The notes below the pieces were generated by a model. It was not told the DNA's origin. It ran no database searches and saw only the letters and a list, made by a program, of their open reading frames with translations. Made by a program: the position numbers and the translations under genes. DNA of 20,938 nt from a virus: positions 1 through 20,938 of the IMG/VR virus record IMGVR_UViG_3300044638_004272. One strand, written 5' to 3'. The stretch's first letter is position 1. Each line of letters begins with the position of its first letter. Shown one piece after another: positions 4,825 to 16,512 of this stretch.

Positions 4825-4847
4825 ATCATTCTCCAGTAATTAAGTCT

Positions 4848-4863: not shown

Positions 4864-5151
4864 ACTGTTACATGCAACAACACCACCCAGCCATGCTTTA
4901 CGTTCTTCCTCGGGCATAGCCATAAGTCTGTAAAGCGTGGTACTAACTTCTTCGTGGTTATCGCCAAAGTATTTCCACGCCAGAGCAAGGTCGTCAACGA
5001 TAGTATGCACCGTAGCGATTCGCCTCGACGATCGATTCGTATAGGGCGTAGTCACGCCAGCGGCGGTAGTATTCCCCTCGTGGTACTCTACCAGCCTGAC
5101 GATCCACTTGTCGGGATAGTCGTAGATAAACTCAATTTCATGGTGCTTCAT
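4861..5151 (-). CDS. Phage hypothetical protein
   Basis: 96 residues from ATG (MKHHEIEFIYDYPDKW); a GTG one codon upstream is an alternative start. GAGGTGATGTG gives the SD. A beta-strand-like start is followed by HTIVDDLALAWKYFGDNHEEV and an acidic/basic helix MPEEERKAWLGG. The TAA stop is part of the 16-base palindrome. It lies between the MoxR and VWA genes. Function unknown. Confidence 0.7.
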   Translation of the reverse strand: MKHHEIEFIYDYPDKWIVRLVEYHEGNTTAAGVTTPYTNRSSRRIATVHTIVDDLALAWKYFGDNHEEVSTTLYRLMAMPEEERKAWLGGVVACNS

Positions 5152-5384
5152 CACATCACCTCAAGTGTGAATGTCGCTTCCACGTACAGGTACGCTTCGT
5201 CTTTGCTGTCGAACCATCGGGTTGGTATCCCCAGATCGTCAGCAAAGAAAACACACCAACGTCCGAAATTTTCGTCAATCATCGTCGATTCGTACACCTC
5301 TGCGAACAGGTGTCGCGTGCTTGCGTTCGCTGTCAGTTGAAACTCTGCACGCGTATTGTTGCCGTTCCACTCCAGTCTTTTCAT
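5151..5384 (-). CDS. Small phage hypothetical protein, weak paralogue of its upstream neighbour
   Basis: 77 residues (MKRLEWNGNNTRAEFQL ... ATFTLEVM). Its end (TRWFDSKDEAYLYVEATFTLE) is similar in spacing and residues to that of the gene before it (RHFSDLGEAKLFLESLYALE), suggesting an old duplication. GGAGAAAGT precedes the ATG and there is a 4-base ATGA overlap with the upstream stop. Predicted alpha/beta protein of unknown role within the MoxR-VWA operon. Confidence 0.7.
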   Translation of the reverse strand: MKRLEWNGNNTRAEFQLTANASTRHLFAEVYESTMIDENFGRWCVFFADDLGIPTRWFDSKDEAYLYVEATFTLEVM

Positions 5385-5692
5385 ACTTTCTCCAACGCAT
5401 ATAGCGATTCCAAAAAGAGTTTTGCCTCACCAAGGTCACTGAAGTGCCGTGGGTGTATGTCGAACGTATCACGTGACGCAACCCAGCCCAGCGAGGCATC
5501 GACCATCGCGTCACCCCCAAGCGTACTACGGACAACTCCGAACAACGTGTCGATGTAGTACTCTATGCTGTTCGCGTTGTACCTATGGAGTGTACGCACG
5601 CTTAACGAAAACACCCCCGGTCTTGGGTTTGCCCACATCAGCTCGGTCTTGTGTGCTGGAGGATGTTTCACTCTCGTGTGTTTCACTCTCAT
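5381..5692 (-). CDS. Phage hypothetical protein after the MoxR ATPase
   Basis: 103 residues from the ATG (MRVKHTRVKHPPAHK) that overlaps the ATPase stop as ATGA. The first codons contain a near-perfect short direct repeat (GAGAGTGAAACA twice), encoding the doubled VKH. The remainder (SVRTLHRYNANSIEYYIDTL ... FLESLYALEKV) is of unknown function and resembles the next gene at its end. A longer in-frame start exists inside the ATPase gene but is not needed. Confidence 0.65.
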   Translation of the reverse strand: MRVKHTRVKHPPAHKTELMWANPRPGVFSLSVRTLHRYNANSIEYYIDTLFGVVRSTLGGDAMVDASLGWVASRDTFDIHPRHFSDLGEAKLFLESLYALEKV

Positions 5693-6702
5693 GATCGACC
5701 AAACGCCGCTTGGTTCTCGACGCCCCACTTGGTGTATGCAGCACTGTTGGCCAGTGACTTGTCACGCTTGTACGCCAGCTTGACGACCAGATTCTGAATG
5801 TCTCCGGGCATCTTGGACAGGAACTTGTATGCCTTGTCGAAGTTGGTGTAGTCCAAGCGGCTGGCCAGACCCATCGCGATGCAGTAGCGCACGTTGAGTT
5901 CCTTGGGTAGCTGCACATCCACGCCGTCGAGTATGTCATCGATACGTGGCATGGTCTCGTACACGCGCAGATGTGTCTCGAACACCATCGCAGCCTCTTC
6001 ACCAACGTCACCCTTAATCAGCTCAACACGATCCTGCATGGGTATGTCGAGGTCGAGCGTCGCGTCAACACCGAACCACGCGCGTGGCGATGGGAACGGC
6101 TGCATCTCTTGCGTGGAGACGAACTTGTGTAGCATGTCCGGGCGGTCGTACAGGAATGAGGTGATCTCAGCTTTCATGCCACGCGGTACTGCGTGCATCA
6201 CGAAATCATCCAGCGTAGTGTTGACCTCTACGTCGCACATACGGTTCTGAAGTGGGCCAGCAAGGTTAAACGTCACACCCTTATCACTCTTGCGGTTACC
6301 TGCGGCGACGATCATCCACTCAGGGGGTATGCCGAAGTCTTGCGGTGTCAGCGTGATCTGAAACGCGATCGCCTGCATCGCCTGCGGAGCCGAGGTAATC
6401 TCATCAAGGAACAGGATGCCCGCGCCGTCACGGGGGAAGAACTCGGGGCGCAGCCATCGCGTTGTCATTGTCTCCATGTCAGGCATCAACGCGCCCTGTA
6501 CATCTGTTGGCTCACGGCTGGCAAGGCGCAGGTCAATAACGCCGCGCCAGTTCTCTACGTGCTGCGCCAGAAGCTCGCTGGTCTGAAACACAACATCGGA
6601 CTTGCCAATGCCCGACGGCCCACGCAGGAACACAGGACGCTTGCGGGTGCGCTCATTCAGGTAGCGCTTAACGAGGATCGGGGTTACGTGTGATATACGC
6701 AT
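5689..6702 (-). CDS. MoxR-type AAA+ ATPase
   Basis: 337 residues. Walker A is GPSGIGKS at 28-35; Walker B is ILFLDEI at ~95-101; the sensor-1 region is IVAAGNRKSD at ~131-140, followed by GPLQNRM with an arginine typical of this clade. This order and size are those of MoxR AAA+ proteins, which act as hexameric chaperone-like remodelling ATPases paired with VWA proteins. The VWA partner lies downstream in the same operon. SD GGAGATAAGAT precedes the ATG, and a 16-base palindrome lies about 58 bases upstream. The target is unknown; related MoxR/VWA pairs occur in other phages, for example N4-like phages (general knowledge). Confidence 0.9.
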   Translation of the reverse strand: MRISHVTPILVKRYLNERTRKRPVFLRGPSGIGKSDVVFQTSELLAQHVENWRGVIDLRLASREPTDVQGALMPDMETMTTRWLRPEFFPRDGAGILFLDEITSAPQAMQAIAFQITLTPQDFGIPPEWMIVAAGNRKSDKGVTFNLAGPLQNRMCDVEVNTTLDDFVMHAVPRGMKAEITSFLYDRPDMLHKFVSTQEMQPFPSPRAWFGVDATLDLDIPMQDRVELIKGDVGEEAAMVFETHLRVYETMPRIDDILDGVDVQLPKELNVRYCIAMGLASRLDYTNFDKAYKFLSKMPGDIQNLVVKLAYKRDKSLANSAAYTKWGVENQAAFGRS

Positions 6703-6759
6703 ATCTTATCTCCAGTATTTAAGTATCTAAGTAGTTAAGTATTGTCTAACGGTACTGCT

Positions 6760-6775
6760 TAATCCCATGGGATTA
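6760..6775. repeat. Dispersed palindrome copy 2, TAATCCCATGGGATTA
   Basis: Perfect copy. The TAA stop of the 79-residue gene is its last three bases (minus strand), and it lies 58 bases upstream of the MoxR start. Confidence 0.9.
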
Positions 6776-7012
6776 GTCTTTCTCCAGCTCCATGGTTGCA
6801 AGCTGGGTCACACAAACAGCTTCGAGCCTCACCGAGTACCTACTGCCGTCCGGCTTTTTATACCTGTACGTGCTGCTGCCCCACGAATACTCGACCTGCA
6901 CACCAGCGCCGAGCAGTTTAAACACTTCAGAGGCAACCTCTATCGGCAACAGTACTCCATTCTCGCTGCCGAAGCAAACCACTGCATGAGTGAACGTGTT
7001 GTGTAGGGACAT
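6773..7012 (-). CDS. Phage hypothetical protein
   Basis: 79 residues (MSLHNTFTHAVVCFGSENGV ... QLATMELEKD). It is beta-rich, with an aromatic SWGSSTYRYKKPDGSRYSVRL strand pair. GAGGACTGAG provides the SD within the end of the upstream gene, and only one base separates the two genes. The stop codon lies in the palindrome. No family recognised; operon position links it to the upstream coiled-coil gene and the MoxR gene. Confidence 0.7.
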   Translation of the reverse strand: MSLHNTFTHAVVCFGSENGVLLPIEVASEVFKLLGAGVQVEYSWGSSTYRYKKPDGSRYSVRLEAVCVTQLATMELEKD

Positions 7013-7013
7013 C

Positions 7014-7892
7014 TCAGTCCTCCAGCATCGCGTCGATGGCGTTCAGCAGGTGCTTGGTGTTCTCGTTAAGCTCCTCACGCTTGCCTGAGTCATCGCGCAG
7101 TACCTGCGCCGCAGGCATCATCTCACCGATACGCTTGGCCAGATTAACCGTACGCTCCGGCATAATGTCTGCCAGCTCCATCAGCATGTCGATCTCAGCG
7201 TGGACGTTCTCGATAACAGAGTCACGAAAGATCGGCGGTTTAACAATCTCGACACCGCGCTTGTCGACTGACACACGGTCTTGCTTGCCCGTAACTTCCG
7301 CGAGGTGCGCCACCACTTTACGCAGTCTGGTCAGCGGGTCACGGTACACTGACTCCATGCTGTCTTTGACCTCAGATTCTACCTGCACACGCAGCAGATC
7401 AAGTTCCTCTGTCTGAAGCTGCACACGGAAGTCACCGTAGTCTGTGACTGGGCGATAGCTCACACGCATCTTGAAACCAGCCTTCAGCTCATCTAGGTCA
7501 GGGTACACACTCGCGTCGAACATATCACCTTGCGCGTCCTTGGCGCGGGTCATCACGTTGTTCCAGTTGTTAAGGAACGCTGTGACACACTGGCTGAACT
7601 CCAGCTCGTACTTGGCCATGCGGTCAGCAAACGTCATGAAACGCTTGTTCGGCAGCAGGAACTCACCGCGTGACCACACGTACGTGGTCGACTCGATGTA
7701 CGCACGTGCGCTGGACTCAACAGTCAGGATCGGCTGGATCAGCTGCTTGGGGTACAAGTCCTTGCGGTACTGCCCAGCGTTCTGTGCGTCGTTCGCAGCT
7801 TCTGCGTCGAGCGTTGCTTTCAGGTCTTTCATCGTCATCTGCGGCTTGCGTACAGTCAACGACACCAACATTGCGTGGTCTTTAATACTCAT
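7014..7892 (-). CDS. Helical phage protein next to MoxR/VWA, possibly DUF3150-like
   Basis: 292 residues from the ATG giving MSIKDHAMLVSLTV, which has AAGGAG 7 bases upstream; an in-frame ATG seven codons earlier lies inside the palindrome and is unlikely. After an N-terminal strand and basic segment (SLTVRKPQMTMKDLKATLD) most of the protein is charged helix, with long runs at ~120-190 (ELDLLRVQVESEVKDSMESV) and ~220-290. In many phages and bacteria a protein of this size and helical layout accompanies MoxR and VWA genes (DUF3150 type); assignment here rests on context and pattern. It is the first gene after the promoter at 7982-8010. Confidence 0.7.
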   Translation of the reverse strand: MSIKDHAMLVSLTVRKPQMTMKDLKATLDAEAANDAQNAGQYRKDLYPKQLIQPILTVESSARAYIESTTYVWSRGEFLLPNKRFMTFADRMAKYELEFSQCVTAFLNNWNNVMTRAKDAQGDMFDASVYPDLDELKAGFKMRVSYRPVTDYGDFRVQLQTEELDLLRVQVESEVKDSMESVYRDPLTRLRKVVAHLAEVTGKQDRVSVDKRGVEIVKPPIFRDSVIENVHAEIDMLMELADIMPERTVNLAKRIGEMMPAAQVLRDDSGKREELNENTKHLLNAIDAMLED

Positions 7893-7904
7893 TGCATTGC
7901 TCCT

Positions 7905-7920
7905 TAATCCCATGGGATTA
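7905..7920. repeat. Dispersed palindrome copy 3, TAATCCCATGGGATTA
   Basis: Perfect copy immediately followed, on the minus strand, by AGGAG, the SD of the 292-residue gene. It lies in the leader about 60 bases after the promoter at 7982-8010. Confidence 0.9.
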
Positions 7921-7981
7921 GTCAGTTATCAAGTTAAGGTCGATCATCTTGGTGGGTTACTTCTCCCACTCAAGAAACACT

Positions 7982-8010
7982 ATTATAGCACAGGTAATCC
8001 TGTGTGTCAA
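7982..8010 (-). promoter_or_regulatory. Consensus sigma70 promoter with inverted-repeat operator in the spacer
   Basis: On the minus strand the -35 is TTGACA (8005-8010), the spacer is 17 bases, and the -10 is TATAAT (7982-7987), all consensus. The spacer contains CACAGG-ATTA-CCTGTG (7989-8004), a probable repressor site. It directly follows the stop of the 53-residue gene and reads into the MoxR/VWA operon. Confidence 0.88.
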
Positions 8011-8011
8011 A

Positions 8012-8173
8012 TCAAGGTCGCAGCCTCATCATCAACATCTCCAGCGCGGTTCGCGCGCTTTCCCGCATCTGCTCGCGCTCTTCGGCCATATGCCTAATCA
8101 CATCAAGCAACTCCTCTCTGGTCAACTCTGTGTTCGGCCGGCCGTACCACATAAACTCAAATTGTTCACTCAT
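8012..8173 (-). CDS. Small phage protein with YGRPN-ELTREELL motif
   Basis: 53 residues (MSEQFEFMWYGRPNTELTRE ... LMMRLRP). The ATG overlaps the upstream stop as ATGA. An aromatic start with WYGRPNTELTREELLDVI is followed by an amphipathic helix (MAEEREQMRESARTALEML). Short proteins with this motif recur in tailed phages, with no known role (general knowledge). Its stop abuts the -35 of the next promoter, so it is the last gene of its operon. Confidence 0.75.
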   Translation of the reverse strand: MSEQFEFMWYGRPNTELTREELLDVIRHMAEEREQMRESARTALEMLMMRLRP

Positions 8174-8835
8174 ACCCGTGTCACCTCTCCCTGCAGTCCT
8201 TCCCACACCGGTATCAGCTCCAGCTGTGTGTGGTCTGTGTTGGTCAACTCAGAGTTGTATCCGTGTATCACCTCACGAACCAGACCGTTAACCTCTTGCG
8301 CGAGGTACTCTTCGCTGCCCTCAAGCCCCCACTCAAGCCCACCCAGCGACGCCGTGTGATCTGTGTGTTTTTCGCCGTCAGAGTCCAGCAGGGTTACCTG
8401 CAAGTACGCCCAGCACCAGTCGTTGTTGTACCAGCCCTTGACGTACTCGTAGTCAGATATGACGGCTTTCATCAGTGCGTCCTTGTCATCGGCGGGAACT
8501 CCCCACTGCGCCGCTGCAATTTTCAGCGTCTCCCACACGTCGTACCACTTGCTGTATCTACCATACCTGCTATCGCGAGTGCTCACCAGCCGAAACATCT
8601 TGGCACGGGCAACTTCCTCCATCGCCTGTGCGGAGCACTGCTCGTCGTCATCCCACCCCTGACGCTCGATCAGCTCATCGACATCCGTGGGGTCGTATTC
8701 AAAGTCCATGACAACACCATGCCCCTCATGCTCCTGCTCGGGTGGGCCGTAGTGGTCATCCGCAATGATCTGCACCTTACATTTAAGCTGCGTGGGGTGG
8801 TGCAGCACTGTGTATTCTTTGAGTATGTCCATCAT
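8170..8835 (-). CDS. Acidic phage hypothetical protein
   Basis: 221 residues, start MMDILKEYTVLHHP. It is acidic and rich in Trp and Asp/Glu. Recognisable pieces are DFEYDPTDVDEL, a central RYGRYSKWYDVWE helix, and a beta segment WCWAYLQVTLLDSDG followed by SLGGLEWGLEGSEEYLAQEV. The last arrangement, a strand pair then (S/G)LWG-type turn and helix, is seen in several phage accessory proteins. ATGA overlaps at both ends. Function unknown. Confidence 0.75.
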   Translation of the reverse strand: MMDILKEYTVLHHPTQLKCKVQIIADDHYGPPEQEHEGHGVVMDFEYDPTDVDELIERQGWDDDEQCSAQAMEEVARAKMFRLVSTRDSRYGRYSKWYDVWETLKIAAAQWGVPADDKDALMKAVISDYEYVKGWYNNDWCWAYLQVTLLDSDGEKHTDHTASLGGLEWGLEGSEEYLAQEVNGLVREVIHGYNSELTNTDHTQLELIPVWEGLQGEVTRV

Positions 8836-9494
8836 CTGTCCAACTCCCTCATGGCAAGCAACGCTTGCTTCAGTATGCGCCCATCCTCGTTGCTATGGTG
8901 CAAAAAGGAACCCAGTGTTACACGCAGGTTAATTGCGTTCTGCAGCGCGGTCTTCTGCTCGGTGGTGAAATACTCGTTGTAAATCTCCTCGGGCACGGTG
9001 TCCGTCATGAGAAGCATCGCACTTTTTAACCACTCGATGTACTGCTTCACTTGGAACACGTATGTCTTGGCGTTCCTTCGCGTGTTGAGTAATCCGTCGA
9101 GCGCTTTGCGTGTGTTGGATACGGCATTCTCCAGATAGTCCGGGTTCAACCGACCCACATCTTTTCCGATAAGCCACGGCATGTATGGCATCTGGTAAAT
9201 CCTTAGCGTGGGCTCGCACTGCGACGCGCGCCACCGCAGTTGTGATAGTTGTTTGTTTGTGGTTTTTGACCAATTGTGCGATGCCATGTGCAGCTCGCGC
9301 TCGTCGGTGAGTTTGTTGCGCACCAAGTTTGCCACCGTTGTTTTGTATGAGATAAACTCACCGATGGGTTGAAACCACCGTGACGTATTGTCGTTAGTGA
9401 CAAAGATGTTGGGTGCGTACCTGAAGTTACTCGATTCGTATGGATGGGTGTCGTCGCGCAGTGCTTTATCTACCATTTGTGCGTGGTTTAGCAT
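8832..9494 (-). CDS. Phage hypothetical protein
   Basis: 220 residues (MLNHAQMVDKALRDDTHPYE ... LAMRELDR). Mostly helical, basic and aromatic in the middle (HNWSKTTNKQLSQLRWRA), without signal peptide or membrane segment. AAGGAG precedes the ATG by 6 bases in a leader shared with two other genes and fused to the palindrome. No family recognised. It begins a sub-block of three coupled genes that ends at the 8.0-kb promoter. Confidence 0.75.
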   Translation of the reverse strand: MLNHAQMVDKALRDDTHPYESSNFRYAPNIFVTNDNTSRWFQPIGEFISYKTTVANLVRNKLTDERELHMASHNWSKTTNKQLSQLRWRASQCEPTLRIYQMPYMPWLIGKDVGRLNPDYLENAVSNTRKALDGLLNTRRNAKTYVFQVKQYIEWLKSAMLLMTDTVPEEIYNEYFTTEQKTALQNAINLRVTLGSFLHHSNEDGRILKQALLAMRELDR

Positions 9495-9505
9495 GTCGTT
9501 CTCCT

Positions 9506-9521
9506 TAATCCCATGGGATTA
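9506..9521. repeat. Dispersed palindrome copy 4, TAATCCCATGGGATTA
   Basis: Perfect copy joined directly to AGGAGAACGA-CATG on the minus strand, the start region of the 220-residue gene. Confidence 0.9.
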
Positions 9522-9530
9522 GTCAGTAAG

Positions 9531-9821
9531 TTAGTGAATCGGAGCGTTGTCTAAGTCCTGCTGGTCTTGCAAGTACACGGAGTAATTCGTTTTCACGGTG
9601 TACAGCATCACGTCGACCGGTATGTCGAAAATCGCAGCGATGGTGTACGCGTTAATCAGTAGCGCGTTGAGCGTGTAGGTCGCTGCCAGTGACTCAAGCT
9701 CGTCTGGGTCTTTCTCTGTTTCTTTGAGGAACTCACGCACTTTTTCCTGCACTTTCGCAGCTTCAGCATTGGCGAGTTTATGCAGTTCCTCGTTGTAGTT
9801 TATTGGTTTGCTTGTGTTCAT
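9531..9821 (-). CDS. Phage hypothetical protein, helical
   Basis: 96 residues (MNTSKPINYNEELHKLANAE ... QQDLDNAPIH). The N-terminal half is a charged helix (AAKVQEKVREFLKETEKDPDE) and the second half is more hydrophobic (LNALLINAYTIAAIFDIPVDV). It could be a small oligomeric regulator, but no motif is decisive. GAGGTGGTCAG gives the SD; ATGA overlap with the upstream stop. Confidence 0.7.
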   Translation of the reverse strand: MNTSKPINYNEELHKLANAEAAKVQEKVREFLKETEKDPDELESLAATYTLNALLINAYTIAAIFDIPVDVMLYTVKTNYSVYLQDQQDLDNAPIH

Positions 9822-10036
9822 CTGACCACCTCCACTTCGGCTTCAGTTTCCACCCACACACGGGCACCGCATGACAGCGGATCATCTGGGCTGTACACCA
9901 CACGGCTTGCGCCGTGCACCAGCACCTCGTTGCACTTGGTGTTGGCTTTGTACGTCTTGACGGTCAGCACCGGCAGGTCTGCACCTTTGGTGTTGGCACG
10001 GATGTTGTGCTGGTTCACGTGTATGCGTGTTTTCAT
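9818..10036 (-). CDS. Small beta-rich phage protein
   Basis: 72 residues (MKTRIHVNQHNIRANTKGAD ... ETEAEVEVVR). Short basic strands at the start and an acidic strand at the end suggest a small beta barrel. The HNIRANTK and GASRVVYSP pattern recurs in small proteins of proteobacterial phages as I recall it, without function. TGATG overlap with the upstream gene and ATGA with the next. Confidence 0.7.
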   Translation of the reverse strand: MKTRIHVNQHNIRANTKGADLPVLTVKTYKANTKCNEVLVHGASRVVYSPDDPLSCGARVWVETEAEVEVVR

Positions 10037-10296
10037 CAGTACACCACCATGTACTTGGACAGTACGTCAACGTCTTCGAGCGCCACCAACTGGCAGGAAT
10101 GCACCGCGTAGTGGAATGCACCGCCGCAGTCGTATACTCCTCGATTAGACCACTCGAGGTCTTCTTCATCATCGTGGCACTCACCCAGCAGGGCGTTGCG
10201 CTTGGCTTCTTCCTCGTTGTCAGCGATGACCAGTGATGTTGTGTCTTTGGCGTACTCGCCCGCTAAAATTTCTATAACAACGTAATAGGTGTTCAT
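10036..10296 (-). CDS. Small phage protein, DpnD/PcfM-like N-terminus (weak)
   Basis: 86 residues from the ATG giving MNTYYVVIEILAGE, which has AAGGAG 8 bases upstream and overlaps the previous stop as ATGA; an upstream in-frame ATG is rejected. The strand followed by SLVIADNEEEAKRNAL resembles the strand-helix layout of DpnD/PcfM-type small proteins, and the next gene upstream starts similarly. The rest has a Cys/His-containing DCGGAFHYAVHSCQ segment. Function unknown. Confidence 0.7.
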   Translation of the reverse strand: MNTYYVVIEILAGEYAKDTTSLVIADNEEEAKRNALLGECHDDEEDLEWSNRGVYDCGGAFHYAVHSCQLVALEDVDVLSKYMVVY

Positions 10297-10655
10297 TGCA
10301 CTTCTCCTTCGGCAGCTTCCTGCTCGTAATGCCATTCGGCTTGGGTTGTTACGCGCTCCCAGTCAAGGTTGAGATGAGAGCACAGGTGGATCAGGTCAGT
10401 TACTGCGTCGATGATTGCCTCTTCACTTACATCACCCTGCAGCATACTGCGGGCGTCAGTGGCTCGTTTGTTCATAAATTGTCCTTCTACTTCGGCTTGA
10501 CGTTCGTACACCGCTATGCACATGGCATCTCGCTGCACAGGGTCTGCGTTTATGATTTTCACTTCTGCTTTCAACTCTGCCTCATCGGCACTTGTCGCTT
10601 CTACGGCAACGCGGTACGTGATGTTCTCGTGGACTAGGACGTTGTAGGTTTTCAC
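10293..10655 (-). CDS. Phage protein with DpnD/PcfM-like N-terminus (weak)
   Basis: 120 residues, GTG start (MKTYNVLVHENITYRVAVEA). GAGGGGG precedes it by about 8 bases, and two bases separate it from the upstream stop. The N-terminal beta hairpin followed by TSADEAELKAEVK matches the pattern of DpnD/PcfM-type proteins. The C-terminal helical part (EEAIIDAVTDLIHLCSHLNLDWE ... AEWHYEQEAAEG) is common in phage and mobile-element proteins of unknown role. It probably belongs to the same family as its downstream neighbour. Confidence 0.72.
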   Translation of the reverse strand: MKTYNVLVHENITYRVAVEATSADEAELKAEVKIINADPVQRDAMCIAVYERQAEVEGQFMNKRATDARSMLQGDVSEEAIIDAVTDLIHLCSHLNLDWERVTTQAEWHYEQEAAEGEVQ

Positions 10656-10657
10656 AA

Positions 10658-11143
10658 TTAGACCCCCTCGTCATTGAGTATTGCGGCCATTTTCTCGGCT
10701 TGTGCCATTGTGTGGACGTAGCAGGGGTGGCCCATGTTGAAATCGAAATTCCCAGTCGCCCATTCACGATTCCCGCCGACGGCGATCCGTTTAAATACAC
10801 ACCAGCGCCGTGCTGATTTCATCCATTCTCCAGCATCAGGGTCTACCGCAAAAGCAGCAGCACAGATTTTCAGCGTCTGGCTCACCGCTTTACTTGCGAT
10901 CTCGGTATGGGCTTCGGTCTTGAAGCAGTTTCCATGGCTTAGTGCGTCAGCGTCCCAGCGCCCGAGGCAGTTCTGTGTACGTTCGCTATTTCCGTTGGGA
11001 GCAACGTACAGGTAGTATTCCCCATCTTCCGGCTTCCACCGCGTTGGCAGTGCGGGTTTGTCCGGTGCTTCGATGATTGCACGTAAAGCACGTGCCTCGG
11101 CTTCGATTGCTTCGATACGTTTTACTGCGTCTTGTTTGTTCAT
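10658..11143 (-). CDS. Phage hypothetical protein with N-terminal coiled coil
   Basis: 161 residues (MNKQDAVKRIEAIEAEARAL ... AAILNDEGV). A short coiled coil (residues ~3-26) is followed by WKPEDGEYYLYVAPNG, a typical phage accessory-protein strand pair, and then WCVFKRIAVGGNREWATG. GGAGAACAAGC precedes the ATG; ATGA overlap upstream. No catalytic motif. Confidence 0.75.
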   Translation of the reverse strand: MNKQDAVKRIEAIEAEARALRAIIEAPDKPALPTRWKPEDGEYYLYVAPNGNSERTQNCLGRWDADALSHGNCFKTEAHTEIASKAVSQTLKICAAAFAVDPDAGEWMKSARRWCVFKRIAVGGNREWATGNFDFNMGHPCYVHTMAQAEKMAAILNDEGV

Positions 11144-11583
11144 GCTTGTTCTCCGTTAAGTGCGTTGATTAGTATTTGTTCAGCGGACAAAAAGTCCTCG
11201 TTCTCCCAGCTTGGGTAATCGCAGGCTAGGATTACCTCTTTCAACTGCGCAGTAGTCAGCACTATAGTGTGCTGCTTGGTTTCTTGTATCAGTTTCATTG
11301 CATCCCACACCATCCGCTGGATGTGGTCTACATTCGGTTCGCATATCTCGACCGAATGAGCTTCTAGTGCTTTGTGCGCCGTGGCTAACAACTCACAGGC
11401 AATCTGTGCGTTGGTCTTGGGCTTGCGCCGGTACTCGAAATCTACACACCAGCACGGGTCACCCTTCATCACAAACCAGTCATGCTTGCGAGGGGCGCGA
11501 GCCTCCCATAACTCCCACGGCTTGTCCGTGGTCATTGCGTCTTGTGCGTATGCCGCCATCTTGTCTGCGTGTACGTGTTTCAT
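11140..11583 (-). CDS. Phage hypothetical protein, KHxHADxMxxYAQDA family
   Basis: 147 residues. The N-terminus MKHVHADKMAAYAQDAMTTD followed by PWELWE and a CWCVDFEYRRKP segment is a pattern I recognise from many proteobacterial phages, where it is annotated as hypothetical. The C-terminal half is helical (LTTAQLKEVILACDYPSW). AAGGAG precedes the ATG and also overlaps the final codons of the upstream HTH gene (ATGA). Function unknown. Confidence 0.8.
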   Translation of the reverse strand: MKHVHADKMAAYAQDAMTTDKPWELWEARAPRKHDWFVMKGDPCWCVDFEYRRKPKTNAQIACELLATAHKALEAHSVEICEPNVDHIQRMVWDAMKLIQETKQHTIVLTTAQLKEVILACDYPSWENEDFLSAEQILINALNGEQA

Positions 11584-11849
11584 TTCACACTCCTTAAGTG
11601 CTTAGGTACAGGTTGTTTGGTTTTCTGGAGGACTATGTTGTAGCCCAGTACTCTGGCAACAGGTGCAAGTTTGTCGATGCGTGGAGCCATGGTCTTGCCC
11701 GACTTCCACGCATACAACGTCACCCAGTGGCATCCTGCTTGGGCTGCGATATCCCGCAGCCCCTCATCTGAGTACTTCCATAGCTCATGTATCATGTCTA
11801 GGAATATCTCCTCGCGTGTGTCCGTGTTGAGCACTAGTTTTGCTTTCAT
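11580..11849 (-). CDS. Helix-turn-helix (XRE/Cro-like) DNA-binding protein
   Basis: 89 residues from the ATG giving MKAKLVLNTDTREE, with AAGGAG about 8 bases upstream; the earlier in-frame ATG would need start codons without an SD. Residues ~26-70 (SDEGLRDIAAQAGCHWVTLYAWKSGKTMAP ... ARVLGYNIV, given in pieces) match the Cro/C1-type fold: helix, IAAQAGCHWVTLYAW as helix 2-turn-helix 3, and a stabilising helix. A C-terminal basic tail follows. It is a candidate to bind one of the two operator families seen here, but nothing in the sequence links it to a specific site. Confidence 0.82.
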   Translation of the reverse strand: MKAKLVLNTDTREEIFLDMIHELWKYSDEGLRDIAAQAGCHWVTLYAWKSGKTMAPRIDKLAPVARVLGYNIVLQKTKQPVPKHLRSVK

Positions 11850-12067
11850 GGTTGGTCTCCTTCGCACAGGTGTGCAGTGTTGTTGTAATCAGGCCAACCG
11901 TGTTCGCCGTTGGTAGCGGCGAAGAGCTGGGTCATCTCGCAGTGGTGTTTCAGTTCAAGGTCTTGGTCGTCCGGCATGGGAATCACCAACCCCACCGCAA
12001 CAAGCAACACTACAATTACAAAGCCGCCTGCGATTCGCATAACTCCTAAAGAATAATCATCGTGCAT
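11846..12067 (-). CDS. Small single-span membrane protein
   Basis: 73 residues (MHDDYSLGVMRIAGGF ... HLCEGDQP). One transmembrane helix at ~11-31 (RIAGGFVIVVLLVAVGLVIPM), then a polar domain with Cys and His (HHCEMTQLF, TAHLCEG). AAGGAGAACGAG precedes the ATG and is fused to the palindrome. ATGA overlap with the HTH gene. Role unknown; possibly a membrane-anchored accessory factor. Confidence 0.7.
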   Translation of the reverse strand: MHDDYSLGVMRIAGGFVIVVLLVAVGLVIPMPDDQDLELKHHCEMTQLFAATNGEHGWPDYNNTAHLCEGDQP

Positions 12068-12078
12068 CTCGTTCTCCT

Positions 12079-12094
12079 TAATCCCATGGGATTA
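12079..12094. repeat. Dispersed palindrome copy 5, TAATCCCATGGGATTA
   Basis: Perfect copy. It carries the TAA stop of the 117-residue gene and runs straight into AGGAGAACGAGATG of the next. Confidence 0.9.
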
Positions 12095-12445
12095 GCTTGT
12101 CGGTTGTTGTTGCGCGTACATAACTGTTTCCACACGCCCGTCGTAGTAGTGCAAGCGGCCTTTTTTGCGGTAGTGACCAGCAGTCAACTGCGTGACCGGT
12201 GTGCCGTAGTTCGTCGGCACGTCATACCCATCGCTGTCGTCCACCCACCCCGTTGACCAGCGTGGCCCACAGCACTCGCAGTATTGGCTGTGTGGTTCAA
12301 AGAGCGCCTCTGCGCGCTCGGTCGCCTCGGCTGCGTTAGGCGCTTGTATATACACATCTTCTGCCACATCATCATCGACGATGAAGTAACCACCAGAGTT
12401 GTTCTGACTGTAGTGAAACCATTTCAGGGTTGTTACGTTGTTCAT
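12092..12445 (-). CDS. Phage hypothetical protein, QNNSGG family
   Basis: 117 residues. The N-terminus WFHYSQNNSGGYFIVDDDV, then VYIQAPNAAEATERAEALF and a CECCGPRW Cys cluster, is a combination I recognise from many phages of proteobacteria, where the function is unknown. The CxCC pattern may bind metal. AAGGAGAACGAG precedes the ATG in a leader identical to that of the 73-residue gene. The stop codon lies in the downstream palindrome. Confidence 0.82.
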   Translation of the reverse strand: MNNVTTLKWFHYSQNNSGGYFIVDDDVAEDVYIQAPNAAEATERAEALFEPHSQYCECCGPRWSTGWVDDSDGYDVPTNYGTPVTQLTAGHYRKKGRLHYYDGRVETVMYAQQQPTS

Positions 12446-12456
12446 CTCGTTCTCCT

Positions 12457-12472
12457 TAATCCCATGGGATTA
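12457..12472. repeat. Dispersed palindrome copy 6, TAATCCCATGGGATTA
   Basis: Perfect copy with the same fused leader (AGGAGAACGAGATG) as copy 5. The two leaders are identical across at least 28 bases. Confidence 0.9.
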
Positions 12473-12484
12473 GCTTGTCGGTTG

Positions 12485-12799
12485 TTAGATCGTTGTCAGT
12501 TTGCCGTGACCCTTGCGCATAAACGCGTACAGGTCAGTGTGCTTGTTGCGATACTCGGTCAGCGTGTGTGCATGTGCATGAGCCAGCGGGCTGGTCGCAG
12601 GCTGTCTGAACCGTGGTTGGCTGGATGACCCAGCCACGTTGTTACGCTGTGCAACGGCATGAGCGTCCTGCTCACCGCATGGCAGGCAGGTGGTATAACC
12701 CAGCGCACGGCGGCGCATTGGGTACGGTGCTGCACACTCTCTGCAGAATGTAATGTCGTCGGGGTCTATGTTCAGTAAGTCAGTTGTCGTTAATCCCAT
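12485..12799 (-). CDS. DksA/TraR-type zinc-finger protein
   Basis: 104 residues. Four cysteines at 19, 22, 38 and 41 (CREC ... TTCLPCG) with basic PMRRRALGY between them form the C4 zinc finger of the DksA/TraR family. TraR-like phage proteins bind RNA polymerase in the secondary channel and alter host transcription; that is family knowledge, and the coiled-coil tip residues of full DksA are absent. The remainder (SSSQPRFRQPAT ... RKGHGKLTTI) is basic and low complexity. The ATG lies inside palindrome copy 7 with AGGAG 8 bases upstream. It is the first gene after the 12.9-kb promoter, consistent with early expression. Confidence 0.8.
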   Translation of the reverse strand: MGLTTTDLLNIDPDDITFCRECAAPYPMRRRALGYTTCLPCGEQDAHAVAQRNNVAGSSSQPRFRQPATSPLAHAHAHTLTEYRNKHTDLYAFMRKGHGKLTTI

Positions 12800-12806
12800 G
12801 GGATTA
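12791..12806. repeat. Dispersed palindrome copy 7, containing a start codon
   Basis: Perfect TAATCCCATGGGATTA. The ATG at its centre is the likely start of the zinc-finger gene, with SD AGGAG just outside the palindrome. Confidence 0.9.
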
Positions 12807-12875
12807 GCTCCTGTGCAGTTGTTACGTGATTAAGTGTCTTGCACTCAAGCAGGACGATCTCCCACTTGAATGACT

Positions 12876-12904
12876 ATTATAGCACAGGTAACCCTGTGGG
12901 TCAA
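12876..12904 (-). promoter_or_regulatory. Sigma70 promoter with inverted-repeat operator in the spacer
   Basis: Minus strand: -35 TTGACC (12899-12904), spacer of 17 bases, -10 TATAAT (12876-12881). The spacer holds CACAGG-GTTA-CCTGTG (12883-12898). The layout is identical to the 8.0-kb promoter, including a TAGTG/TAGTC-type start and a downstream GTGGGAGA. It drives the operon starting with the zinc-finger gene. Confidence 0.87.
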
Positions 12905-12905
12905 A

Positions 12906-12966
12906 TGAAGGGGTCGGCACAAGGGGTCAAAACAAGTCTGTGGGACAACTGAAGGGGTCGGCACAA
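12906..12966. repeat. Direct repeat TGAAGGGGTCGGCACAA upstream of the 12.9-kb promoter
   Basis: Exact 17-base copies at 12906-12922 and 12950-12966, separated by a segment that also repeats GGGTCAA. It sits upstream of the -35 and after the RHH gene. It could be an activator site or the remains of a promoter duplication. Confidence 0.75.
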
Positions 12967-12997
12967 CGACCCCCCACTCACGCACACACGCACACGC

Positions 12998-13255
12998 CTA
13001 CGAATCGAACAGGGAGTCGAGTTCTTCAGCCAGATCACGGGCGGGTTTCTGCACCCGAGGAACGGGTGTTTGTTGTATCGGGTTGGCTGTGGCTTGGGTG
13101 TTTGGTTGCGCAAGCAGTTGCAGTTTCGATGGGTCTCGCAGATATGCACGCAGTATCGCACGCATAAAAACGGTCAACGGCAGTCCACTAGCAGCCGCAG
13201 CGCGTTGCAACTCAAGCATGGTTTCTGGGGTATCACGGTAGGTTAGTGCCTTCAC
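12998..13255 (-). CDS. Ribbon-helix-helix DNA-binding protein
   Basis: 85 residues, GTG start (MKALTYRDTPETMLELQRAA) with GAGGAG 9 bases upstream. The first ~42 residues show the ribbon strand KALTYRDT, helix A (PETMLELQRAAAAS), the turn GLPLT and helix B (VFMRAILRAYLRD), the Arc/CopG/MetJ layout. A Pro/Gln-rich linker and an acidic tail (AEELDSLFDS) follow. RHH proteins bind tandem short repeats as dimers and often control their own gene or plasmid partition. Directly upstream lies an array of such repeats at 13301-13489, which makes it a good candidate binding partner. Confidence 0.82.
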   Translation of the reverse strand: MKALTYRDTPETMLELQRAAAASGLPLTVFMRAILRAYLRDPSKLQLLAQPNTQATANPIQQTPVPRVQKPARDLAEELDSLFDS

Positions 13256-13300
13256 TTTAGATTCTCCTCAACGTAGGTTTTTAAGGGTTGATACCGCTTA

Positions 13301-13489
13301 GACTCTATTAGATGTTTAAGTGAGTCTATTAGATACCAACGAGATTCTCACGTCAAGAGGCTATTTGATGTCTTTTAGATACCTAATAAAGTCTAATAGA
13401 GGCTAATAGAATCTAATAGAGTCTTGTTGGTGTCTTAGTCGAGAGGCTTATTGATATCTCGGAGACTCTACTAGATATCTTTTAGACTC
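13301..13489. repeat. Helically phased repeat array upstream of the RHH gene
   Basis: CTAATARA occurs at 13383-13390, 13393-13400, 13403-13410 and 13413-13420, exactly 10 bases apart. The reverse complement TCTATTAG lies at 13304-13311 and 13325-13332. Looser copies follow, such as GACTCTACTAGATATC (13464-13479) and TTTTAGACTC (13480-13489). Tandem short sites on one DNA face suit an RHH protein. Confidence 0.85.
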
Positions 13490-13736
13490 TCGGTTTTTAG
13501 GCGTTTTTAGTTGGATTCAGCAAAATAGTCGGTTTTTACTAAAAAATTAGTCGGCTGAAGTTCATTTTTAGCGGTAGGTTTGGCGTGCAAGTGTTTGATA
13601 TCCCTTGTTTTAGTAAAATAGTAACTTTTTTGGGGCTAGAGGAGAGTTTGGAGGTGGGGGTCGGGGCGTTGGGCGGCAGGCAAATCGATTTTACGGTATG
13701 GACTAGAAAATAAAGTTACTAAAATAATTGGGTACT

Positions 13737-13782
13737 TTATTATTATTATTATTCTATTTATTCTAATATATATATATATATA
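13737..13782. repeat. Simple TTA and TA tracts
   Basis: (TTA)n at 13737-13753 and (AT)n at 13766-13782, with little G or C in between. This is an easily melted stretch in a genome that is otherwise of balanced or high GC. Confidence 0.9.
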
Positions 13783-13836
13783 ACAAGCAGTTAGCCGTGT
13801 GCCCCAGTGCCAAAACGCCAAAATTTAAACTGCGGG

Positions 13837-14046
13837 TAACATATTCTCTGACTAATTCTCATAAGTCATTGATTCTCTCGAATTAGTTTTTACTAATTTT
13901 TTTTGAAAGGCGCCAAGACGCACACACTAATTGAAATTCGACTATACAAAAATTTGTTGCGCTCGTAAGTCATTGATTCTTCCATCAAACTAGGGGTGTA
14001 AAAATGAAAACGCCAATCATCTGACGGTTAACATATTCCCTGACTA
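13837..14046. repeat. Duplicated motif set TAACATATTC-CTGACTA and TAAGTCATTGATTCT
   Basis: TAACATATTCYCTGACTA occurs at 13837-13854 and 14029-14046; TAAGTCATTGATTCT occurs at 13862-13876 and 13966-13980; AAAACGCCAA occurs near 13812 and 14008. The copies flank a segment between them in rearranged order. Confidence 0.85.
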
Positions 14047-14059
14047 GTGACAATTTGAC

Positions 14060-14075
14060 TAATCCCATGGGATTA
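14060..14075. repeat. Dispersed palindrome copy 8, TAATCCCATGGGATTA
   Basis: Perfect copy in non-coding DNA, not attached to a gene start; TTGAC directly precedes it on the plus strand. Confidence 0.9.
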
Positions 14076-14131
14076 ACAGAGCCGATAAATATGAGTTATT
14101 TTGGCTGGGCTGGTCGCATACTGGGCGGTCT

Positions 14132-14147
14132 TAATCCCATGGGATTA
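14132..14147. repeat. Dispersed palindrome copy 9, with GC-rich flanks
   Basis: Perfect copy flanked by GGCGG on one side and CCGCC on the other, giving a longer, slightly offset hairpin. Confidence 0.9.
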
Positions 14148-14165
14148 GCCGCCACGCTGGCCGCA

Positions 14166-14218
14166 TGATAGTAGTGATAGTACTGCCGCAGGCAGGGCTT
14201 GTGATAGTAGTGATAGTA
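14166..14218. repeat. TGATAGTAGTGATAGTA direct repeat, two copies
   Basis: 17-base exact copies at 14166-14182 and 14202-14218, each built from a 9-base unit TGATAGTAG. Read in one frame the unit is a run of stop codons. Further copies lie at 15003-15019 and, partially, at 15689-15698. Confidence 0.9.
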
Positions 14219-14235
14219 TTTGGCGGACAGCCGAA

Positions 14236-14254
14236 AGCCCGCTCGAGGCGGGCT
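14236..14254 (-). terminator. Hairpin terminator after the 192-residue gene
   Basis: AGCCCGC, five-base loop, GCGGGCT, then TTTC on the minus strand, 23 bases after the stop codon. The U-tract is short. Confidence 0.6.
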
Positions 14255-14276
14255 CCGGTCTGGCAGGACTAGCAGA

Positions 14277-14855
14277 TCACTTGATCTGCTGTAACTTGAG
14301 TCCCATCTCTTTCAGTGCGGCCGTGATTTTCAGCGCCTTGTCAGCGTCCTTGAAATACACTGGCAAGTTATGCAAGAACGCAGCAAAGGCTAGATCATCA
14401 TTGTTTGACGTGTCAGTCACCTGACTCGGGATTGTCGCCGGTTGCGCTGGCTTGCGTCCGCCACCTGCTGCGCGTGCCATCCCGTTTTCTTCACGCACTT
14501 GTTTGGCAGCGTCCTTCATGGCGTGCTTCGCCATATTGATCGCCTTGTCCGCCGTGGTGTGCGTTTCCACTTCCTGACCGTCTTTTTTCTCTGTGAATGA
14601 AATGGCGGTAGTCGGAGCCAGTGCCAGTGTCAACGCGTCCTTGAAGATAGCCTTCACATTGTGACCAGCGTCCGATAACTCGGGCGCATACTCTGCCATA
14701 ATCGCTGCCAGCACTTCCGGCAGCTTGCCTTCCGGCGGATTCTGTGCGGCCAGCTTGGCAGCAGACACGCAGTGCTTGTACATGTTAGTCGCTGCGTCCG
14801 CAGCTTTTTTGATGGACAAAACGACTTCGGTAGAACGTACGATTGAAATTGTCAT
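14277..14855 (-). CDS. Phage hypothetical protein, helical, alone between promoter and terminator
   Basis: 192 residues (MTISIVRSTEVVLSIKKAAD ... GLKLQQIK). An N-terminal helix with many Ala and Lys is followed by TLALAPTTAISFTEKKDGQE and an acidic-basic helix (AINMAKHAMKDAAKQVREEN), then a flexible RAAGGGRKPAQPATIPS linker and a C-terminal helix pair. Own promoter (14935-14962), structured leader and terminator show a separately controlled unit. No family recognised; it could be an abundant early DNA- or host-interacting protein. Confidence 0.8.
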   Translation of the reverse strand: MTISIVRSTEVVLSIKKAADAATNMYKHCVSAAKLAAQNPPEGKLPEVLAAIMAEYAPELSDAGHNVKAIFKDALTLALAPTTAISFTEKKDGQEVETHTTADKAINMAKHAMKDAAKQVREENGMARAAGGGRKPAQPATIPSQVTDTSNNDDLAFAAFLHNLPVYFKDADKALKITAALKEMGLKLQQIK

Positions 14856-14882
14856 AATTGCGATTCCTAAGTGAACAAGTAA

Positions 14883-14922
14883 GTGAGAATGCTTCTCACC
14901 TGAGCGGGCCGCCGATCTCGGC
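14883..14922 (-). promoter_or_regulatory. Structured leader of the 192-residue gene
   Basis: Two hairpins in the transcribed leader: GTGAGAA-loop-TTCTCAC (14883-14899) and GCCGA-GA-TCGGC (14911-14922). They could stabilise the mRNA or influence start. Confidence 0.55.
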
Positions 14923-14927
14923 GACTT

Positions 14928-14962
14928 GGGATTAATTGTACGTTAATCCCGCCATATGTCCA
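14928..14962 (-). promoter_or_regulatory. Promoter overlapped by a TTAATCCC inverted repeat
   Basis: Minus strand: -35 TGGACA (14957-14962), 16-base spacer, -10 TACAAT (14935-14940). GGGATTAA and TTAATCCC face each other (14928-14935 and 14943-14950) and cover the -10. A further half-site lies at 14987-14994. This is a likely operator for the protein that recognises the dispersed palindrome. Confidence 0.65.
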
Positions 14963-15002
14963 CACTTTTTTCACCTTATTCCCACATTAATCCCGCGGCG
15001 CG

Positions 15003-15019
15003 TGATAGTAGTGATAGTA
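15003..15019. repeat. TGATAGTAGTGATAGTA, third full copy
   Basis: Exact match to the two copies near 14.2 kb. It lies just beyond a terminator at 15031-15054 and upstream of the promoter at 14957. Confidence 0.9.
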
Positions 15020-15030
15020 ATCTCGAGGCG

Positions 15031-15054
15031 AAAAAAAGCCGGCTTGCGCCGGCT
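15031..15054 (-). terminator. Strong intrinsic terminator
   Basis: Minus strand AGCCGGC-GCAA-GCCGGCT followed by TTTTTTT, 18 bases after the stop of the 86-residue gene. Confidence 0.9.
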
Positions 15055-15072
15055 CTTGGTATATCAGGCTGG

Positions 15073-15333
15073 TTAGACCACGAAGTCTTCCGTGCTTATC
15101 AAGATCGAGCCCTTCACTTGCGGGCAGAAGAAGTTGATTTCGTACGAAGACTCAGATGAACCCGGTACTTTAAAGATCAGGACGTGCATCTTCTTACGCC
15201 CATCTTCTTTTAGCATCTTGCGGACTTTGGCAATGGCGCCTGTCAACGTGTTGTCGGCCGCCCAGCATATCGCGCACGACACGAAGTAATGATATTGTTT
15301 CTTTGATCCGCCAGCCTGTTTGAAAATTACCAT
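15073..15333 (-). CDS. Small phage hypothetical protein
   Basis: 86 residues from the ATG giving MVIFKQAGGSKKQYHYF; GAGG lies 8 bases upstream, and an ATG two codons earlier is possible but too near the SD. It has an alpha/beta pattern with a CAICWAAD segment, a basic helix (AIAKVRKMLKEDGRKK) and a strand HVLIFKV, then SSYEINFFCPQ. It looks like a small nucleic-acid-binding or single-stranded-DNA-like fold, but the sequence does not settle it. Terminator downstream. Confidence 0.75.
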   Translation of the reverse strand: MVIFKQAGGSKKQYHYFVSCAICWAADNTLTGAIAKVRKMLKEDGRKKMHVLIFKVPGSSESSYEINFFCPQVKGSILISTEDFVV

Positions 15334-15358
15334 GTTCATATCCTCAGTAAGTAAGTGT

Positions 15359-15376
15359 GCCGCCCTTTCGGGCGGC
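15359..15376. terminator. GC-rich hairpin between two minus-strand genes
   Basis: GCCGCCC-TTTC-GGGCGGC, a 7-base stem with a 4-base loop. No T-run follows on the minus strand, so it may attenuate or process mRNA rather than stop transcription. Confidence 0.45.
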
Positions 15377-15383
15377 TTGATTG

Positions 15384-15569
15384 TTATGCCCATCTATCCA
15401 TTATTAACTGCGCTGCTTCCCGTATGTATTGCTGCGCTCCCTTGCTCATCGCTGCGCGCAGTTCAGCATCTAACAGTCGACGTGCTGATTGAATGTTACC
15501 GAGTCGAGCGTGCAATGCTGCAGTCTGAACTGCGCGAACATGTTTCTTTATAGGCTTTGCGTTAGTCAT
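15384..15569 (-). CDS. Small basic helical phage protein
   Basis: 61 residues (MTNAKPIKKHVRAVQTAALH ... LIMDRWA). Two Ala- and Arg-rich helices (VRAVQTAALHARLGNIQSARRLLDAEL in pieces, then QQYIREAAQLIMD). GGGG precedes the ATG at AGGGGAACAAC. It is the first gene leftward of the divergent control region and so an early-gene candidate. Unknown role. Confidence 0.7.
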   Translation of the reverse strand: MTNAKPIKKHVRAVQTAALHARLGNIQSARRLLDAELRAAMSKGAQQYIREAAQLIMDRWA

Positions 15570-15618
15570 GTTGTTCCCCTAGTCAGTGAGTCAGTGTGTG
15601 TATCGATCCAACACGTAT

Positions 15619-15647
15619 AGATTAATCCCGCCACGGGATTAAGTCAA
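15619..15647 (-). promoter_or_regulatory. Possible leftward promoter with TTAATCCCG operator
   Basis: Minus-strand TTGACT (15642-15647), a 17-base spacer and TAATCT (15619-15624), a weak -10. The inverted repeat TTAATCCCG-N3-CGGGATTAA (15622-15642) fills the spacer. It would serve the 61-residue gene. Confidence 0.5.
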
Positions 15648-15680
15648 GGGGGTAGGGGGTATAGGACACCCACACCCCCC

Positions 15681-15703
15681 ACGGGATATGATAGTAGTCC
15701 CGT
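15681..15703. repeat. TGATAGTAGT part-repeat inside an ACGGGA/TCCCGT inverted repeat
   Basis: Partial copy of the TGATAGTA element (15689-15698) flanked by inverted arms of 6 bases. Confidence 0.6.
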
Positions 15704-15717
15704 CACTCGTATAACAC

Positions 15718-15796
15718 CCCCCATTTTTTGAACTCTAACAACCCACACAGAAACTCGTAGTTTGTTTAGAAATTGGCCCCCATTTTTTGAACTCTA
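15718..15796. repeat. Direct repeat CCCCCATTTTTTGAACTCTA, two copies
   Basis: Exact 20-base copies at 15718-15737 and 15777-15796, 59 bases apart, in the divergent control region. Possible binding sites for an activator of late transcription, or a remnant of duplication. Confidence 0.85.
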
Positions 15797-15886
15797 GTAT
15801 CCAACAGACTTCTCTGTAGCTTAATTCGTATGGCCCACCACATAATGACCCGCTAAAAAATCCCCGCCCCCTATTTTTCCCCTTAG

Positions 15887-15915
15887 TTGCGTGGCGAAAA
15901 ACCCCGTGCTACAGT
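15887..15915 (+). promoter_or_regulatory. Rightward sigma70-like promoter before the small terminase
   Basis: TTGCGT (15887-15892), a 17-base spacer and TACAGT (15910-15915). The ATG of the terminase begins at 15922, where transcription should start, so the message may be leaderless. Confidence 0.6.
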
Positions 15916-15921
15916 AATCGC

Positions 15922-16512
15922 ATGAAGAGTGCCGTGCTTGCTGACAATATCCTCAGAGAGTTGGCCCTTGCCGTAGCACGAAACAACGTAGGCGCGATGC
16001 GTCCGTTGCAGGAAGTGGCAGCAGGTGAAGGTTTAACACTGACGGAGTATCACGAAATCGCAAAAAACCCACAGTTTTTGCGGTATGTCGACATTTACAC
16101 AGCCGAAATGAAAGACTCAGGGTTCTCTTTCGCTGCAAAAGCACGAATTTTAGCTGAAGACCTCCTGCCGCACGCCTACCACATGGCTAAAGATGTGGAT
16201 GTGCCAGCCCCGGTACGCATGAAAGCGATCGAGAATCTGGTGACGTGGGGGGATTTGGCGCCGAAAAACAACCAGCCCAGCATCAATGGGCCAAGTTTCA
16301 GCATTACGATCAGTTTGCCGGACACTTCCACGGGGAAAGGGCACACGATAACGGTTGACCACCGCCCACAAAGTGACGACAATGAGTTGTCCACAGACTT
16401 TTCCGATGCTCCCCTCCTTGGAAACGACCGACACCCCCTTGTGCCGGTCGACTTTTTTGAGTCTGACGACTACGAGTACGCCGGTGACGATGTGATGGAC
16501 GCTCCGCTATGA
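15922..16512 (+). CDS. terS: Terminase small subunit (putative)
   Basis: 196 residues (MKSAVLADNILRELALAVAR ...). It lies directly before the large terminase with an ATGA overlap, the usual order. The helical N-terminal half includes LTEYHEIAKNPQFLRYV (helix-turn-helix-like) and YHMAKDVDVPAPVRMKAIENLVTWGDL, a pattern seen in phage small terminases, then a beta strand (FSITISLPD) and an acidic tail. Role: recognises phage DNA and delivers it to the large subunit. No SD precedes the ATG, and a -10-like TACAGT is 7 bases upstream. The family match is by pattern and position. Confidence 0.8.
   Translation: MKSAVLADNILRELALAVARNNVGAMRPLQEVAAGEGLTLTEYHEIAKNPQFLRYVDIYTAEMKDSGFSFAAKARILAEDLLPHAYHMAKDVDVPAPVRMKAIENLVTWGDLAPKNNQPSINGPSFSITISLPDTSTGKGHTITVDHRPQSDDNELSTDFSDAPLLGNDRHPLVPVDFFESDDYEYAGDDVMDAPL

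Follow-up and report, generated by a model that had tools for sequence, protein, structure and literature searches.

The IMG/VR virus record IMGVR_UViG_3300044638_004272, analyzed here over its whole length of 20,938 bases (the window), is probably a phage fragment, in which the terminase and portal genes are read rightward and a long block of small genes leftward. It carries two predicted strong promoters, P1 and P2, which lie 4.9 kb apart, point in the same direction and both drive leftward genes. The spacers between their −35 and −10 hexamers are filled by one and the same inverted repeat, ACAGG-N4-CCTGT. The best reading of this arrangement, and in our judgment a probable one, is that the repeat is an operator shared by the two promoters, through which a repressor would control both.

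The promoters stand out by their hexamers. P1 (block at 12868–12911, minus strand) combines a −35 element TTGACC (12904–12899) with a −10 element TATAAT (12881–12876) and matches 11 of the 12 consensus positions by which sites were scored, while P2 (block at 7974–8017, minus strand) combines TTGACA (8010–8005) with TATAAT (7987–7982) and matches all 12. Over bases 1–20000, which the scan covered, only these two reached 11 or 12 matches; the next best site had 10, and promoter-like sites as a whole numbered 17, versus 12.9 in shuffled sequence. Both spacers are 17 bp long (CACAGGGTTACCTGTGC in P1, CACAGGATTACCTGTGC in P2), and an extended −10 TG is seen at the window promoters. P1 is located between an 85-residue open reading frame and a zinc-finger gene; P2 starts beside the stop codon of a 64-residue open reading frame, with a DUF3150-like gene downstream. 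An earlier note on this DNA had placed two promoters at 7982–8010 and 12876–12904, and its positions, hexamers and 17-base spacers are exact, both promoters being on the minus strand.

The repeat itself has full arms of six bases with four bases between them. The candidate operator O1 (CACAGGGTTACCTGTG, 12883–12898, minus strand) occupies the P1 spacer and the candidate operator O2 (CACAGGATTACCTGTG, 7989–8004, minus strand) the P2 spacer; each is an exact dyad and also matches the core pattern ACAG-N2-TT-N2-CTGT. The two spacers are identical at 16 of 17 positions, which bears out the claim that the same inverted repeat sits in both. A scan of the whole window returned two exact copies of CACAGG-N4-CCTGTG in 20,938 bases, both in promoter spacers. 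Every other match has three mismatches, and the eight matches found with up to three mismatches are at chance level (11.4 expected). A dyad with arms of at least six bases has a probability of 0.0044 in a random 17-mer. The P1 and P2 blocks, in turn, are 89% identical over 44 nt, and because both dyads fall within this repeat, the two copies are probably one event duplicated and not independent hits. A degenerate left half of P1/O1 (TTGTCCCACAGACTTGTT, 12931–12948, minus strand), 44 bp upstream and within a 29-nt tandem duplication (family D7, 93%), was rejected as an operator, its 13/18 match being at chance level.

Relatives of the window were gathered through its VWA-like protein (47 loci) and through a TAATCCC palindrome that recurs near its gene starts (99 stretches). 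A promoter was called at 11 or more of 12 matches, with TACAAT scored equal to TATAAT, in distinct loci with enough sequence, some of which are near-identical to one another. Of 31 loci, 28 have an equivalent of P1 no farther than 1500 nt past the p192 gene (the misses being L029, L016 and L088), and of 36 loci, 33 have an equivalent of P2 no farther than 1300 nt ahead of the DUF3150-like gene (misses L033, L126 and L052). Two of these misses are outside the distance limits, the P2 of L033 lying 1.55 kb upstream and the P1 of L088 at 1.6 kb. Promoters of this quality occur in the related contigs at a background of 0.14 per kb, with the P1 and P2 equivalents counted in. The conserved position in relatives strongly supports P1 and P2 as real promoters. 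A search for closer relatives by terminase (12 loci) yielded no further P1. Three contigs hold a third promoter, TTGACT-GTAYACGCATATGCGTG-TATAAT, between the DUF3150-like and ATPase genes (L132:7819, L136:7838, L129:6157), with a palindromic spacer of its own.

The dyad returns in close relatives. Contig L029 (the same as L173), whose terminase and portal are 99% identical to those of the window, carries TTGACT-CACAGACTTACCTGTGA-GATAAT before its second p192-like gene, a place that differs from those of P1 and P2. Its spacer shows 3 differences in 17 positions from either window spacer, all of them outside the ACAG and CTGT arms. L029 has two p192-like genes (5954–6550 and 7381–7974), of which the second lies behind the operator-bearing promoter and holds a copy of the TAATCCC palindrome, TAATCCCATGGGATTA, inside its coding frame. 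A candidate third operator, O3 (ACAGACTTCTCTGT, 15804–15817, plus strand), lies in the window ahead of the terminase operon, in the divergent region that separates a leftward gene from the small terminase gene, and the homologous place reads ACAGACTTCCCTGT in both L029 and L175. Beside it, CCCCCATTTTTTGAACTCTA occurs twice, at 15718–15747 and 15777–15806, 59 bp apart. The core pattern ACAG-N2-TT-N2-CTGT has three matches in the window (0.08 expected; three reached in 0 of 100 shuffles) and two in L029 (0.03 expected), enrichments that are flattered by the pattern having been written after the sites were seen. It was found in 26 of 190 loci, many of which were fetched with a similar pattern or overlap one another. 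Spacers of other relatives being mostly not palindromic, the dyad is a feature of the window's own lineage. Its recurrence in a third promoter, that of L029, and the retention of O3 in L029 and L175 make it probable that a single factor acts on P1 and P2, and the proposal of a single regulator for the two promoters is upheld at that strength.

Likeness between the two spacers of a genome extends beyond the window. In 19 genomes with both promoters, hand-picked and with near-identical ones kept, the P1 and P2 spacers of the same genome agree at 10.1 of 17 positions, a value reached in 0 of 5000 permutations, versus 7.5 in permuted pairs; in a set thinned to 14 genomes without the window, the figures are 9.6 versus 7.7 (2 of 5000 permutations). 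The upstream and downstream flanks have no such within-genome excess, which makes it less likely that the likeness arose by gene conversion across the entire promoter block. Compared with the spacers of 17 other genomes, those of the window match at 7 of 17 positions at most. A cross-table of spacers resolves mostly into two clade-wide types plus the window's own, and the idea of a private spacer word in each genome is weakened by these clade-level types. Spacers that track a trans-acting factor would fit this pattern, which shows nothing more certain.

Several observations weigh against the shared operator. Spacers elsewhere in the clade are mostly without a dyad, with a mean longest arm of 2.91 (32 distinct spacers) versus 2.85 in shuffles of all 34; spacer dyads as a general trait of the clade were rejected on these figures, and because spacers outside the window are mostly non-dyadic, the palindrome is not a property of such promoters as such. 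The window holds only two dyads of the O1 type. O3 lies outside any recognizable strong promoter, and it is deleted in L174, whose terminase is 100% identical over 445 of 481 residues. The within-genome likeness of spacers mostly comes down to two or three clade types and thus reflects few independent events. Finally, no repressor gene was recognized among the window proteins scanned; the window spans 21 kb, contigs near 60 kb are among its relatives, and the true repressor may be encoded beyond the window, where most of the genome probably lies. Alternatively, the dyad could be incidental: P1 and P2 would be unregulated strong promoters with an extended −10 TG, copied once, in which the repeat has no binder. 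The relatives do hold promoters at the same places without it, and since the window copies form one duplicated block, the chance of 0.0044 counts only once. We nevertheless consider an incidental dyad unlikely, for its arms are kept in L029 at a non-homologous promoter though neighboring spacer bases differ, the third site is present in three related contigs, and spacers are more alike than their flanks.

The combination of operator and promoter was also looked for elsewhere. The exact form was absent from other phages among the viral contigs searched; a wider pattern gave three unrelated matches and the widest 18 stretches, among which only L029 has genes of the clade or the TAATCCC palindrome. 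A TTGACAAACAGCAAATCCTGTGCTATAAT family is common to seven of these 18 stretches. A promoter of the form TTGACA-AACAGCAAATCCTGTGC-TATAAT, with ACAG-N6-CTGT in its spacer, is common to L147, L148, L150, L156, L159, L160 and L161, which belong to other phages. Because the promoters are of host sigma70 type and similar spacer dyads turn up in unrelated phages (the 18 stretches, L029 included), a host regulator might bind the dyad and tie early transcription to the state of the host. We hold this to be very improbable: phage relatives lack the dyad, and the strict pattern was found in only seven stretches of a genome collection, six from Clostridia, Oscillospiraceae or Eubacterium and one from Chloroflexota, with no coherent aquatic host group among them.

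A shared phage operator has a parallel in the lambda/434 class. Contig L153, unrelated to the clade and caught with a broad pattern, contains a lambdoid immunity region that has no near match among the phage records compared. Its CI protein (210 residues, HTH_3 and Peptidase_S24 domains) has 434 Cro and the 434 repressor as closest solved relatives (434 Cro PDB match, 2e-15), a Cro-like gene is divergent to it, and ACAG-N6-CTGT sites flank the repressor gene on both sides. L153 holds four matches to ACAG-N2-TT-N2-CTGT. The inner arms of one site, ACAGGCAAACCTGT, are exactly those of O1 and O2, and a further site, ACAGAAATAGCTGT, lies within the 17-bp spacer of a TTGACA/GATAAT promoter. The arms, spacing and spacer placement of O1 and O2 are thus those of 434-class phage operators, a likeness in working and not in membership. 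The arm spacing of the 434 operator consensus is ACAR-N6-YTGT. Shared with that class are a dyad that overlaps the core promoter, between the −35 and −10 elements of strong promoters, and the ACAG-N6-CTGT arm spacing in O1, O2 and O3, with several copies per genome. The window differs in that each promoter has a single full site, that the two promoters lie 4.9 kb from each other and point the same way, and that no CI/Cro pair with an S24 domain was recognized among the proteins scanned. A repeat that fills the spacer recalls promoters of the MerR type as well, in which spacers of 19–20 bp are untwisted by an activator, whereas both window spacers are 17 bp and the hexamers are near consensus.

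Which protein would bind the dyad is a separate question. The earlier note had named an 89-residue helix-turn-helix protein (11580–11849, minus strand), whose gene sits between the two promoters on the strand that they share, downstream of P1 and upstream of P2. Its predicted model (predicted local distance difference test score 86) has XRE-like fold matches: Foldseek matches to SinR, HipB, P22 c2 and 434 Cro are weak but consistent, none below E 0.001. On the other side, its homologues, 87–96% identical over 86–89 residues in seven loci and partial in two more, occur without the site: none of these nine loci, which belong to other phages and are partial, has an ACAG-N2-TT-N2-CTGT site in the available sequence, nor a TAATCCC palindrome. 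No common dyad was found upstream of the homologue genes, and tblastn gave no match to the protein in the other clade loci compared. The fold suits a repressor within the preferred explanation, but the nine loci leave this protein a weak candidate, and it is unlikely to be the one that acts on P1 and P2. A second candidate regulator, 85 residues long and ribbon-helix-helix-like, is encoded immediately upstream of P1 (12998–13255, minus strand). Its fold was judged by eye, with a single-sequence model of low confidence; a RelB-like match (E 0.017) is below the cut-off, and the search returned no credible solved relative. L101 encodes a 166-residue protein of similar ribbon-helix-helix look at the same place upstream of P1.

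The transcripts that P1 and P2 would start have a common design of their own. A hairpin is predicted at the 5' end of each, at 12845–12869 for P1 and 7947–7975 for P2 (both on the minus strand). With positions counted from the base after the −10 element, the first hairpin of at least five pairs begins at 6–9, close to the expected transcription start, in 27 of the 45 non-redundant leaders; 200 shuffled sets gave 7.0 on average and 14 at most. The window P2 is among the 27; the P1 hairpin is drawn from position 2, with two extra outer pairs, and is excluded. The folding z-score averages −2.1 over 68 leaders. In ten P1 leaders of relatives, picked as alignable, 96.2% of cells pair and four pairs have both sides changed, so that the changes are compensatory; slid structures fall to 28–49%. 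The P2 leader alignment gave no consensus structure, owing to misalignment, and an Rfam scan of the window had no match.

Each leader ends in a copy of the palindrome TAATCCCATGGGATTA, at 12791–12806 in P1 (69 nt past the −10) and 7905–7920 in P2 (61 nt past it), where it folds as a short stem. Nine exact copies lie in the window, at 4848, 6760, 7905, 9506, 12079, 12457, 12791, 14060 and 14132, most just before gene starts, whereas 0.04 matches would be expected even with up to three mismatches. The form in leaders is TAATCCC[AG][CT]GGGATTA; in relatives the arms are constant, as the search pattern itself fixed them, with R-Y variation at the two central positions. A stretched variant, TAATCCCGTGGCGGGATTA, is present at 15623–15641, and half-sites surround a promoter-like site at 14962–14935; these two observations suggest that the palindrome is a DNA operator. 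A literature search for it in phages found no phage account, the sole match being on a Pseudomonas two-component system. Short motifs in many copies near gene starts are also known from mycobacteriophage cluster A, whose stoperators lack symmetry and bind the immunity repressor (PMC9283540); the window differs in having two separate motif families, of which the TAATCCC one is palindromic. The two P promoters had been taken as distinct from the TAATCCC family. This no longer holds: within each transcription unit the palindrome follows the promoter, so that the two families are not separable.

The leaders also open the possibility, which we rate as lesser but not negligible, that the decisive regulation is in the transcript, with the dyad secondary. 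The 5' hairpin could protect the mRNA or serve as an antitermination RNA in the manner of HK022 put, which works through the zinc-binding domain of the RNA polymerase beta' subunit, and either could coexist with a shared operator; a 5'-terminal hairpin that protects mRNA is the plainer alternative of the two. The count of 27 of 45 leaders and the compensatory pairs in P1 leaders speak for such a role. By analogy, HK022 putL is the nearest known arrangement: it lies directly downstream of an early promoter, its first paired base is A3, and the put RNAs come in two copies, putL and putR (PMC9378689). The window shares two copies of a structured RNA from the 5' end, as predicted structure with inferred starts. 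However, the HK022 put RNAs have two stem-loops in about 70 nt and are defined by function, whereas a window leader has one hairpin of about 25–40 nt and then the palindrome; the lack of a P2 consensus and of an Rfam match also counts against regulation in the transcript.

Under the shared-operator reading, P1 and P2 would be leftward promoters of host sigma70 type, both strong, in a podovirus-like phage, each carrying, in the window lineage, an operator with an ACAG-N6-CTGT core between −35 and −10 in lambda/434-class geometry. We infer that a protein binds these sites and represses, and that the operons they control are early. A dimeric XRE-type repressor, probably phage-encoded, would bind O1 and O2 and block RNA polymerase at both at once, with O3, before the structural operon, as a possible third target. 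Once freed, the promoters would give transcripts that start with an RNA hairpin and run into the TAATCCC palindrome at the first gene.

The first gene after P1 encodes a C4 zinc-finger (DksA/TraR-like) protein (12485–12799, minus strand; phrog_54 at E 5e-4, below NCBIfam cut-offs), and the first after P2 the DUF3150-like protein (7014–7913, minus strand), which probably begins at the ATG at 7892, a choice made by visual comparison with relatives. Further downstream of P2 are an AAA ATPase (5689–6702, minus strand; phrog_1297, PF07728) and the VWA-like metallopeptidase-type protein (3700–4824, minus strand; PF13203 and PF09967) that served to find relatives. The DNA of the P2 region had no match among known phages. 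The terminase is at most 37% identical to proteins in 29 phage records and the DUF3150-like protein 30% identical to those in three cyanophage records; a direct scan of viral contigs for the latter returned nothing, although tblastn on loci fetched otherwise did match. A stretch at about 13260–14270 is without clear genes and partly present in L029; it includes tandem 10-bp units of the CTAATAGAGG type at 13383–13422. Direct repeats of the TGATAGTAGTGATAGTA type are found at 14153, 14189, 14990 and 15678, and resemble the direct-repeat operators typical of ribbon-helix-helix proteins.

By itself the operator would be unremarkable, as a strong phage promoter with a repressor site within it; its clade-wide setting is of more interest. 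Both promoters can be followed through dozens of related contigs, with hexamers and position constant and spacers varying by lineage. We tentatively suggest, as a conjecture that may well fail, that a large clade of water-borne, uncultivated phages deploys the same conserved control cassette at two places in each genome: a sigma70 promoter close to perfect, whose spacer holds a lineage-specific operator type common to both copies, then a structured RNA at the 5' end of the transcript and, at the first gene, a TAATCCC palindrome. If this is true, spacer types would mark repressor specificities, and so immunity-like groups, of which the window lineage would have the palindromic type. The arrangement thus offers testable predictions on early control in a phage group for which the searches made found no close cultivated relative.

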